From the NCBI GenBank assembly GCA_030247885.1, contig JAPDRO010000028.1, positions 248,001-312,000 on the forward strand: a stretch of 64,000 bases of DNA, in the 5' to 3' direction. The position numbers were made by a program, and so were the translations under genes. Below the pieces are notes generated by a model. It searched no databases. It had not been told where the DNA came from and saw nothing but the letters and a program-made list of their open reading frames with translations. Below, in pieces: positions 10,346 to 14,715 of this stretch. How positions within the stretch are numbered: the stretch's first letter is position 1; every line of letters starts with the position of its first letter. The stretch is from Taxawa tesnikishii (nom. ined.) (Eukaryota; Ascomycota; Dothideomycetes; Dothideales).

Positions 10346-13038
10346 CTAGAACGCCGCCTTGCCATTCTCTCCGTTGACAGTAGTTCCGTTGACGCCCTCG
10401 GCATGCGCCTCGCGCTCAAGCTCCCTCGTGATCTCGTCCAACACTCCTGCGCTCGCTGCCACGAACCCGAGGAATGGACGGCTCGGAGACAAAACCTTGG
10501 ATCTGTATTCGGGGTGGTATTGCACGCTTCAATCATTGTCAGTCGAGACAAAGAAAGGAAAGGAACATCTGAAGCCCGAACTTACCCAACGAACCAAGGA
10601 TGCTCACGGATTTCAATGATCTGCTGTCGTCAATGGCTGCGTGCATCAAGAGGCATAATTCCTGCCTACCTCGTTACGCATTGATGTGTCGTCCTTGCCG
10701 ATGAAGGAGAACCCAACCTTCTCCAATACGTCTGTGTACTTCGGATTAACTTCGTAACGGTGTCTGTGGCGCTCGTTGATCGCGCTGATGTTCGCGTCTC
10801 CCGCTGTAGCGGCGTAAAGCGCCTTCAGACGACTCCAATCGGTTCCAGGCTGAAAGTACGTGGGACGCAGACCAAGACGCATGGTCCCGCCCATCTTTCC
10901 AGTGTGGTGCTCCGGCATTGAGATAACGATGCGGTCGTCGCTAGATGCATCGAATTCCTCCGAGTTGCCGATGATGTTGTCGAAACCAGCAAGAGACCTT
11001 GCAGCTTCGATTACGGCGATCTGCATGCCCAAGCAAATGCCAAGGTATGGTACCTTCTGCTCACGCGCCCATCTTGCGGCCGCGATCATGCCTTCACATC
11101 CGCGCTGGCCGAACCCCCGGGTACTAAAATGCCCTTTGCCGTGCATACCGAGTGCCATGCCTGATGATACTTCGCGGGGTTCTTGCGCTGCATTTCTGCC
11201 TCCAGTTCCTCTGCGTCTACTCGAATCAACCTGAGCTTGCGCTTGCACTTCATAGCGCTGTGCTCCAAACTCTTCTCGACACTGAGATATGCGTCAGGCT
11301 GGCTGAGATACTTCCCGACCATCACAATCTCCACATCGTCCACGGGCCTCTCCATTGCCAATGACTTCCACGTGTGCCAGATTTTGGCACCCTTCGAAGT
11401 CATAGCCGGAGGAATGGAAATGTCGCCGAGCCGGAGTGTGGATTTGAGGATCTCAACAAGACCCTGGCTCTCCAAATGGATGGGCACCTGGTACGTGCTC
11501 GGAAGGTCGTAGACGTTCAAGCAGTTCTCTGGTGATACCGCGCAGAACCGTGAGATCTTTTCGATAATCGCTGGCTCAAGCTGGAACAGTCAGTCTTCTT
11601 AATTTTATACCTCTCTCGCATGCCACTCACAGGCTTCTCGGCGCGGATGGCGATCGAGTCAGGGAACAAGCCAGCGCTTCTGATGGTACGGATGGCCATC
11701 TGTGTGGGCTTGGTCTTTTGCTCTCCGTGCACTGAAGGCACATAGCTGACGTGGATCTGCATAAAGTTGTCCCGGCCGGCGCGAGCTCTCAGCTGCGTCA
11801 TTGCTTCGACGAACTGGAGATCGTTAGCATATCGGAAACAAGGATAGGAGCAGCTGCGCAGGACCATACCGGCATGGACTCAATGTCGCCAACAGTACCA
11901 CCGAGCTCGATGATGCAGACGTCGGGCTCTTGGCCAGTCTCATCAACCGGAACTCTGCCAGCCCGCTCAACCCAGTCCACAATAGCATTCACGATGTGTG
12001 GCACGATCTGGACTGACAGAGAGTGTCAGCGGGATGCTCTGTGCAGGAGAAGGCGATTTTACAAACCAGTGCGGCCAAGATAGTCTCCTCGTCTTTCCTT
12101 TTCGATTACACTGGTGTTGTTAGTAGAAGCGTCAAGGCAAACGTAGGATTAGAACCTACTGGGAGTAGATTTTTCCCGTTGTGATGTTGTTGTCCCGAGT
12201 GAGTGTCTATGTGCCAAGGTCACTCCCATGATCACACCCTCGTGTTGCTTAAAATTACTTACGATCCCAAGATAGCGCTCATAGTTGCCGAGGTCTGTCT
12301 TCGTAAGAATTCGCACAGCCAGAATCAGCGCGTCCCCTAACCTAAATCGGTTTCTGCACTGTCAAGAAAGTGTCAGAAGAGTACTGCATGCCGGAGATTG
12401 TGAAAGATATACCCATCATCGGTGACGAAGGTCTCGCCGTGTTCCACTAACAGAATTCAGTGTTTGGTGCGCAGAACATGCCGTCAAAGGATACCTACAC
12501 GGCGACATGGTTCCTGCCTGCATCCAAAGCAATCAGCTTGGAAGTAAACTCATGCTCACAAGCTTACGTACGTCAACATTGAGGTAGGGATCGATCTTAA
12601 TTCTTGTTGACCATGAGTGTCTATCCGGCGTTATATGAGGTATAAACAGGCTTACGAGGACACCTTCAGGCCCAACGTCTACTCTCATAGCGTTAGCTTG
12701 CGAGTTCATGACTGATCCCAAGGAAGCCTGACTTTGAGCAGCAGCCCACTGCTACTGGCGATAATGCCCCTACGCGCCAAATTAAGGATAGGGTTTTCTG
12801 CTATTCCAAAGACCCTACTGACTTTCCAACACCACTGATCACACCGCCTTTCGATATATCAGTTTCTTGTCCTGAAGGACGAAAATGCTGAGGGCTACTG
12901 CACCGGATACGAGTACTGGAACGAGGAAGGGTCGGTTAGCGGTATGTTGCAGCGGAGGGAGTCGAGTATGGGATACCATATCTATAGTCTGGTCAGTATC
13001 CGCAAGCATTGTGTTGTTTCTCTAGGTACAAACTTCAT
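10346..13038 (-). CDS. URA7: CTP synthase, 17 exons with a chain of micro-exons
   Basis: Converts UTP to CTP using glutamine and ATP, the last step of pyrimidine synthesis. Exons by splice reading: about 13038-13029, 12915-12904, 12847-12823, 12769-12733, 12678-12656, 12602-12572, 12517-12499, 12446-12413, 12358-12342, 12294-12263, 12206-12160, 12110-12067, 12012-11870, 11813-11631, 11580-10670, 10620-10586 and 10526-10346. The joined N-terminus ([17 protein letters not shown], then [27 protein letters not shown] and [13 protein letters not shown]) follows the family without a gap. The synthetase domain has [11 protein letters not shown] near residue 150, and the glutaminase domain has the catalytic Cys in YLGICLGMQ near 400 and the His/Glu pair in VQYHPEY near the end. 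One G must be added at 11113-11117 (C5 on the plus strand); length is then 594 residues. The first donor reads TTTG|TACC and lacks a proper GT, so exon 1 is the weakest part. Divergent from the aldo-keto reductase. Confidence 0.9.
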
Positions 13039-13526
13039 CTTGACGATCTTTTGCGCCTGTTATGGCGGCCTTGGTAGTATAATACACTGGTCGGGGAGAG
13101 GTCGAAGTTGTGTCGAGTCTTGCATGTGAAGACAAAAGTTCCAAAGTTCCTCGCGTCGGCTTATCGATAGGATCTCTGCCAAGAATCCGTCCTTCGTCGC
13201 GCGCACTCTCCAACGCGCTGCCACTTCTCTACTCTAGCGGTCCTCCATACAAAGCCAGTAAGAAATGGGGTTTCCCATGTTGGGAGGGCAGTGATGCCTG
13301 TATCAGTCAACGCATACAGATACCAGACTAGATAATAGCAACACGGAAGTACAGGAACACCTTCCAGATGTGGGAATCGCGCAATGGATAGGATGCATAA
13401 ACCCGCTCGGTCATGACATCACGCGTGTAAACAGGAAGCGGAGAAGACAAGGTAGGGATAAATCATCCAACGTTTCCTCTGTTCTCCTCCCTCTTCTCCC
13501 CAGTCAATCTATACCAACTGCCCGAG
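13039..13526. promoter_or_regulatory. Divergent intergenic region CTP synthase / aldo-keto reductase
   Basis: 488 bases between diverging starts, expected to hold both promoters. A pyrimidine-rich leader (TCCTCTGTTCTCCTCCCTCT, about 13478-13498) lies just before the reductase start. No gene seen. Confidence 0.45.
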
Positions 13527-14715
13527 ATGTATCAGTTCTTCTCCCTGCTGCCATTGGCGGCTCTGGCGTTCGGCCAAAATGTCGAGATCCAAGTCCCCGT
13601 ACAGGATTCGACTCTGAGACAGATCCCACTGTTGGGATTCGGCACTTGGAACCTGGACAAGTCCAATGCTTCTGAGGTGGTATCTCATGCCATTCAGACA
13701 GGCTACCGCCACATCGATTGTGCTGCCGCATACAGCAACGAGAAAGAAGTCGGCAAGGGCATTGCGGATGGCTTGAAGAAGGCCGGTCTTGATCGCTCTG
13801 ACATCTGGATTACCTCGAAGCTGTGGAACGACCAGTAAGCAGCCCATTCTGTTTCGGAAAGCGTTTGCGCCAGATCCTCGTGTGAAGTAATCCTCTTTTG
13901 GAAAGACCGTCAAGCGATCGATCGCAAAGTGCATGCAGAATTGCATTGATCGACTGTTATATCGCCAGCCTGTTGAAGACAGTGCCCTTGTGATTCTCCG
14001 AACCTTCATTCTGACATCCTCTCCCAGCCACGCCCCCGAAAAGGTCGTTGAAGGCATCGACAAAACACTCTCTGACCTGGGCCTCGACTACCTCGACTTG
14101 TACCACATGCACTGGCCCGTCGCCTCCACCTCCTCCGGAGACAACAAAATCTACTACGTCGAGACTTGGCGCGCCATGACCCAGCTCGTTCAATCGGGCA
14201 AGACCCGCCACATCGGCGTCTCAAACTTTTCTCCCCACCAACTCGAGACCCTGCTGAACAGCACCACGCATCCGCCCGCCGTGCACCAGATGGAGCTGCA
14301 CCCCTACCTGCAGCAGAGCGACTGGATCGCCTTCCACCAGAGCCACGGGATCCACGTCACCGCGTACTCGCCTCTGGCCGGCACGAATCCGACGTACGAC
14401 AAGAAAGCGGCTCAGCAAGCCAGCTCCCTTCCGCCAGCGCTGCTCGACAACAAGGCTATGAAGGAGATTGCTGAGGCCCGCGACTGCACGGTTGCGCAGG
14501 TGGCACTGGCATGGGGCATCAGTCGGGGCACGAGCGTGATTCCCAAGAGCGCGCATGCGGCTAGGATCGATGAGAACTTCGAGTCTACCGAGTGCAAGCT
14601 TAAGGATGAGGATTACAAGGCCATTGCTGGATTGGGGAAGGAATATACGCATAGGTACAACAATCCGAGCAAGGGGTGGGGATTGCACTTGTATGAGGGC
14701 CTTGAGGATTCGTAG
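13527..14715 (+). CDS. Aldo-keto reductase with a predicted signal peptide
   Basis: NADPH-dependent reductase of the AKR superfamily, reducing aldehydes or ketones of unknown identity. Two exons, 13527-13834 and 14028-14715, give 331 residues exactly in frame. Family signatures: LLGFGTWNLD near 32, GYRHIDCAAAYSNE near 55 carrying catalytic Asp and Tyr, the catalytic Lys in ITSKLWND near 97, and the catalytic His in YHMHWPVAS near 125. IPKSAHAARIDEN near 280 is the NADPH phosphate-binding loop. The first 17 residues (MYQFFSLLPLAALAFGQ) look like a cleavable secretion signal, which is odd for a cofactor-dependent cytosolic family. A start at a later Met would lose the first beta strands, so 13527 is favoured. 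Intron acceptor chosen is CTCCCAG at 14021-14027, which restores the HAPEKV stretch. Confidence 0.9.

Follow-up and report, generated by a model that had tools for sequence, protein, structure and literature searches.

A chain of twelve small internal exons predicted at the 5' end of the CTP synthase gene of Taxawa tesnikishii

The window analysed here is a 64,000-nucleotide stretch (C21:248001-312000) of the Taxawa tesnikishii (nom. ined.) genome, which comprises 29,367,862 bases in 34 contigs, and it carries a CTP synthase gene that runs on the minus strand from 13038 down to 10346. The joined N-terminal part of the product matches the PF06418 profile (CTP_synth_N) over positions 1-265 of 265 with 383.3 bits, against a curated cut-off of 26.1; the first 110 residues read from the joined exons align without gaps to the best PDB matches; and the product, in which one X stands in at a frame break, matches the best PDB chain along residues 1-568 (E 6.5e-223), the C-terminal glutaminase half included. 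The identity of the gene as a CTP synthase of the URA7 type is thus supported. The earlier note on this DNA had named a second intact CTP synthase gene, with this one unexpressed, as counter-evidence to its reading; a single locus was found in the genome when the best candidates were scored, in an assembly that may be incomplete, and the gene seems to be this fungus's sole copy. On its upstream side, an aldo-keto-reductase-like gene (named by eye) starts divergently from the CTP synthase, with less than 500 bases between the two starts (13038-13527).

The full model comprises 18 coding exons and 17 introns, every intron being GT-AG (Table 1). The first 330 coding bases (110 codons) hold 13 of the 17 introns, for which a uniform model gives P 3e-7, and these thirteen introns, all GT-AG, measure 47-61 nt. 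With micro-exons defined as exons of 51 nt or less, and strict micro-exons as those of 30 nt or less, all twelve internal exons from exon 2 to exon 13 are at most 47 nt long and six of them are at most 30 nt, with canonical introns around them. Exon 1 was left out of this count because it includes a 5' UTR besides its 5 coding bases. The earlier note had described twelve small first exons: from its second exon to its twelfth these stand exactly by size, while its 10-nt exon 1 gives way to two exons of 5 nt, which brings the small coding exons from 12 to 13 and the introns among them likewise to 13.

Table 1. Coding exons of the CTP synthase gene model, with the two introns at its 5' end (positions in the window)
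Feature	Positions	Strand	Support
Exon 1, coding part, ATGAA, 5 nt + 5' UTR	13034..13038	-	top of 28,845 start structures; spliced alignment, intron penalties 8 to 5
Intron 1, 52 nt, GTTTGT..ATAG	12982..13033	-	start-structure ranking; spliced alignment
Exon 2, internal 5-nt micro-exon ATATG	12977..12981	-	start-structure ranking; spliced alignment; dinucleotide shuffles
Intron 2, 61 nt, GTATCC..CCAG	12916..12976	-	blind spliced alignment
Exon 3, 12 nt	12904..12915	-	hand splicing; blind spliced alignment
Exon 4, 25 nt	12823..12847	-	hand splicing; blind spliced alignment
Exon 5, 37 nt	12733..12769	-	hand splicing; blind spliced alignment
Exon 6, 23 nt	12656..12678	-	hand splicing; blind spliced alignment
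Exon 7, 31 nt	12572..12602	-	hand splicing; blind spliced alignment
Exon 8, 19 nt	12499..12517	-	hand splicing; blind spliced alignment; exact in homology-free gene finder
Exon 9, 34 nt	12413..12446	-	hand splicing; blind spliced alignment; exact in homology-free gene finder
Exon 10, 17 nt	12342..12358	-	hand splicing; blind spliced alignment; exact in homology-free gene finder
Exon 11, 32 nt	12263..12294	-	hand splicing; blind spliced alignment; exact in homology-free gene finder
Exon 12, 47 nt	12160..12206	-	hand splicing; blind spliced alignment; exact in homology-free gene finder
Exon 13, 44 nt	12067..12110	-	hand splicing; blind spliced alignment
Exon 14, 143 nt	11870..12012	-	spliced alignment
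Exon 15, 183 nt	11631..11813	-	spliced alignment
Exon 16, 911 nt, frame break in G run near 11117	10670..11580	-	spliced alignment
Exon 17, 35 nt	10586..10620	-	spliced alignment; gene finder
Exon 18, last coding exon with stop codon	10346..10526	-	spliced alignment; gene finder

Several lines of evidence carry the chain. When the eleven exons between 12915 and 12067 were cut out by hand, the product was continuous and the introns between them, 47-56 nt long, all ran from GT to AG. A purpose-written spliced aligner, supplied with two CTP synthase sequences as references (u130670 and u130719, which we take to be yeast-like CTP synthases), recovered introns 2-13 blindly, that is, with no coordinates given beforehand, and aligned the chain region to the first 112 residues of one reference with a score of 393, 12 introns and zero frame shifts. 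Thirty shuffled proteins scored at most 30, and the protein itself scored at most 17 against 30 other segments of the sampled genome; by these controls the chain is not a product of chance. In the C-terminal part of the gene the aligner inserted gaps and one non-canonical 'intron' per run, which were excluded from the model.

Further support comes from a homology-free gene finder trained on 212 kb of the genome, the window and hence the CTP synthase gene included. It returned exons 8-12 exactly, placed one edge wrongly in exons 6, 7, 13 and 14, missed exons 1-5 and set a false intron around the frame break. The splice sites themselves score as ordinary, the weakest of the 13 introns reaching 6.57 against a 5% quantile of 4.67 among 213 other predicted introns. 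At the level of the sequence, the exon chain at the 5' end is confirmed as real and as one exon longer than first described.

The additional exon lies at the very start of the gene, where the earlier reading needed its one correction. Introns of about 45-115 bases between GT and AG had been reported, which agrees with the gene after 12915, but the 113-nt 'intron 1' required by a 10-nt first exon starts with TA, although it ends with AG. A canonical alternative splits the same stretch into ATGAA, a 52-nt intron, ATATG and a 61-nt intron, and reads MKYV, not MKFV; the product then begins MKYVLVSGGV, and MKYVLVS is the start of the family. The ungapped CTP synthase N-terminus claimed at first accordingly holds in its gapless joining and its PF06418 match, and changes in its opening residues. 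A one-base assembly error behind the missing GT was also considered and was dropped, since a canonical, error-free solution exists. Twin-intron forms at the 5' end, viewed by eye, were dropped once the listing of start structures had given that solution; as regards a stwintron, 13033-12916 consists of two complete canonical introns around an ATATG that is needed for the frame, nested forms having been judged by eye only.

The listing took start structures with an upstream ATG within a 900-base stretch, at most three exons, GT/GC-AG sites and an in-frame entry to exon 3. Their scores combined splice sites, intron length, codon use and start context, and homology played no part. The MKYV start ranks first among 28,845 structures with a score of 0.86, and the second rank, 0.41 lower at 0.45, falls to an unspliced ATG at 13009. 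Since these homology-free scores lie only 0.41 apart, it is homology that decides between the two. If translation ran from ATG 13009 straight into exon 3, neither the 5-nt exon nor introns 1 and 2 would exist, while the rest of the chain would stand; the frame of this start is open and would yield an N-terminal extension. We consider this start unlikely. It forfeits the M-K-Y start of the family, which is exactly what the two canonical introns produce, and it disregards the signals of both introns, whose strength is ordinary (sums 10.74 and 9.15); moreover, 14 of 27 PDB alignment rows pair residue 1 of the product with residue 1 of the chain.

The two-intron start with its 5-nt exon is also preferred by the spliced aligner at intron penalties of 8, 7, 6 and 5, exon 1 being dropped at 9. 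Moreover, the upstream stretch was put through 1,000 dinucleotide shuffles, and the comparison was confined to leads that supply exactly three residues and contain one or two introns. Some lead appeared in 715 shuffles and a peptide matching M[KR][YFHW][VI] in seven, none of the 1,000 combining such a peptide with a splice score as good as the real one; the real sequence contains a single lead of that form, MKYV. Intron length alone is a weak clue to a hidden exon here, because the beta-tubulin gene of this genome has a canonical first intron of 113 nt; introns predicted by the gene finder reach 155 nt.

Further downstream, the frame shifts within a run of five G near 11117, and the protein alignment carries on without loss; the first stop in the joined frame falls at codon 384, just past the break. 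Similar lesions inside short homopolymers, with similarity resuming in another frame, were seen in a CCT-family gene (L028, about 2591) and in an HSP70-like gene (L040), which suggests that the assembly has homopolymer length errors; because these two other conserved genes show the same lesion, the one near 11117 probably also stems from the assembly. A tubulin place (C1:2126614-2127097), taken up as a further frame break, was rejected, as it proved on reading to be an ordinary intron. The break is what could speak for a pseudogene or decaying copy in which the tiny exons are leftovers. Such a reading is very improbable when all 17 introns are GT-AG, no stop precedes codon 384, the homopolymer breaks in the CCT-family and HSP70-like genes point to the assembly, and the locus is the sole one found; with no other CTP synthase found, the fungus could hardly manage if this gene were truly broken.

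The position of the chain within its genome can be judged from the gene finder's 59 predicted genes (212 kb, CTP synthase included), which average 3.8 introns each and whose internal exons have a median length of 224 nt. Against this sample, the twelve small exons of CTP synthase, with a median of 28 nt, are about eight-fold shorter, so that the ten-fold reduction first stated is roughly right. The longest run of exons of at most 50 nt is that of CTP synthase, with seven exons by the gene finder and twelve internal exons by the full model; two genes follow with runs of three, counts that spurious small exons may inflate, and no comparable run occurs among the 58 other predicted genes sampled. 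One of these two is the gene for ribosomal protein eS4, which lies left of the window (C21:242831-241724, L009) and whose exons, placed by alignment to the best PDB match, measure 225, 46, 145, 21, 10, 99, 26 and 49 nt, with more following; it also holds one GC-AG intron.

The conserved beta-tubulin genes of fungi begin with small coding exons. Those found here measure 12, 24, 68 and 55 nt, only the first two lying below 50 nt, as opposed to twelve internal exons in CTP synthase; on L035, alpha- and beta-tubulin references gave no usable match. Among other conserved genes, adenylosuccinate synthetase (profile 11-416 of 416) and ribonucleotide reductase (1-523 of 523) each lie in one piece and enolase (2-294 of 296) in three, and at nine of ten places matching the CCT/HSP60 profile the frame pieces cover about 95% of it or more; the remaining place (C31), with profile positions 140-365 only, was not accepted as a chaperonin. 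The proteasome, actin, HSP70 and other tubulin places gave more fragmented matches and may hold similar chains. An IMPDH match (C8:340419-342035), mainly one piece, contains five in-frame stops, and a proteasome-family match (C34:88094-88405) contains three inside one match, in both cases probably short introns. The samples also included 50 kb at C1:100001-150000 (L010-L014) in which GC is 25% and open frames of 300 codons are absent, the other three samples having 54-55% GC; this AT-rich segment is presumably a compartment of the type left by repeat-induced mutation. Altogether, tiny exons seem to be spliced routinely in this genome, as we infer from the conservation of coding frames, with CTP synthase as the extreme among the genes resolved. 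For comparison, an ancestral mean of 1.6 introns per transcript has been inferred for Ascomycota (PMC11649378), and Fusarium has 1.8-1.9 introns per gene over its whole genome, with 2.53 for the core genes (PMC5677156).

Two points favour an origin of these introns as recent gains, through copying of introner-like elements: the crowding of 13 of the 17 introns into the first 330 coding bases, and the presence of introners in some Dothideomycetes (PMC4457414). The 1,171-base region has no second copy in the genome beyond the locus itself, by a search that skips very common words, and the 17 introns show no excess similarity among themselves, their best pair being equalled or exceeded in 61 of 200 random sets of 17 other introns. 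Since neither a second copy nor unusual mutual likeness is seen, recent introner copying is hardly credible. Among viral contigs scanned for relatives, a single locus matched, at 42% identity, and it is uninformative for intron positions.

Splicing control of CTP supply, proposed at the outset, is left without support by the structure of the gene. Only one of the twelve internal small exons has a length divisible by three (P 0.054 for so few), although switch-like micro-exons usually have such lengths; it is the 12-nt exon, whose skipping would remove residues of the conserved VLVSGG strand. Among the first 13 introns, ten carry an internal stop if retained, including all four of length divisible by three; retention of introns 3 and 8 leads to a stop soon after, and that of intron 11 to none in the stretch examined. 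With so few exons skippable in frame and so many introns bearing stops, no useful alternative isoform is obvious. Skipping of tiny exons or inefficient removal of introns might still tune the output of CTP synthase, as the retained-intron stops would lower it, but stops of this kind are common to many introns in general and the splice sites here are ordinary; together with the exon lengths, these points make such tuning quite improbable.

Short introns can be recognised as one unit across their own length, a mode known as intron definition. The earlier proposal of a strong reliance on this mode is consistent with the uniform 47-61-nt introns and their ordinary splice sites. Thirteen ordinary U2-type GT-AG introns would leave twelve consecutive internal exons of 5-47 nt, and each of these introns is short enough to be recognised across itself; because each would be recognised as a unit, exon size should hardly constrain splicing. 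The introns flanking the 5-nt exon are probably removed sequentially, since an exon of this length has no room for two complete spliceosomes at once. All introns would be removed constitutively, and the mRNA would encode a normal CTP synthase. The explanation that we hold to be highly probable is, overall, that the only CTP synthase gene found in this fungus makes a normal enzyme by constitutive, intron-definition splicing of ordinary introns; the reading frame, the splice sites, the homology and the single locus are what we observe, and from them we infer that splicing takes place, in what order and in constitutive use.

Comparable cases in the literature, drawn here from partial texts of the cited sources, share single features with the chain. 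The CYP621A gene of Fusarium, likewise from a filamentous ascomycete, has a tiny exon inside a conserved motif and hidden in an apparent single intron; the clue was an intron whose length exceeded twice the median, and RNA reads confirm the exon. One 1-nt exon per gene is described there (PMC12940212), whereas the CTP synthase chain consists of twelve consecutive small exons, the shortest a predicted 5 nt. In Dactylellina haptotyla, lipS is a different gene, and the accessible text mentions no series of small exons following one another there (PMC5639578). A rice transcript contains adjacent micro-exons of 5 and 12 nt, the very sizes of exons 2 and 3 here, confirmed by RT-PCR sequencing, but this is a plant gene with two micro-exons in a row as against twelve (PMC8831610). 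Xlr2 of Trichoderma virens is likewise a micro-exon case in a filamentous fungus, in which a single regulated exon switches protein isoforms, while CTP synthase shows no sign of a switch; the same source, in the part available, places earlier experimental tests of fungal micro-exons in fission yeast only (PMC11121469).

Schistosome micro-exon genes likewise have many short exons per gene, but their exons are mostly divisible by three in length, their introns span 0.1-5 kb and their products are secreted (PMC10526429), whereas the CTP synthase chain has one such exon in twelve and introns of 47-61 nt. Basidiomycetes alpha-amylase genes resemble the present gene in an intron count far above the genome mean (8-22 per gene), and differ in their origin by transfer from a bacterium, their intron-rich genomes and the regular spread of their oldest introns (PMC3584928). 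Among the matches listed from the open-licence literature, none, by its title and abstract start, deals with how introns divide a CTP synthase gene in fungi, nor was any report of a comparable small-exon chain in a fungal gene found. The nearest cases appear to be fungal or plant genes with one or two tiny exons, or the schistosome genes, and the CTP synthase chain is an extreme but probably constitutive case of known short-intron splicing.

Its significance lies in what intron definition predicts, namely that exon length is nearly free where introns are short, of which a run of twelve exons including one of 5 nt, in a core enzyme gene that is apparently single-copy, is a sharp test; if true, the chain would be a natural limit case for this mode of recognition. 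Furthermore, the locus illustrates a way in which annotation can fail, in that a six-frame profile search of the genome sees PF06418 at positions 107-265 of 265 only, in three pieces, where the spliced product holds the whole domain. We lean, with some reserve, towards a wider reading in which the twelve consecutive micro-exons (5-47 nt) are constitutive, splicing is indifferent to exon size with obligatory sequential removal around the 5-nt exon, and standard annotation hides such chains in further conserved genes of fungi, eS4 of this genome being an example; parts of other conserved genes may be concealed in the same way.
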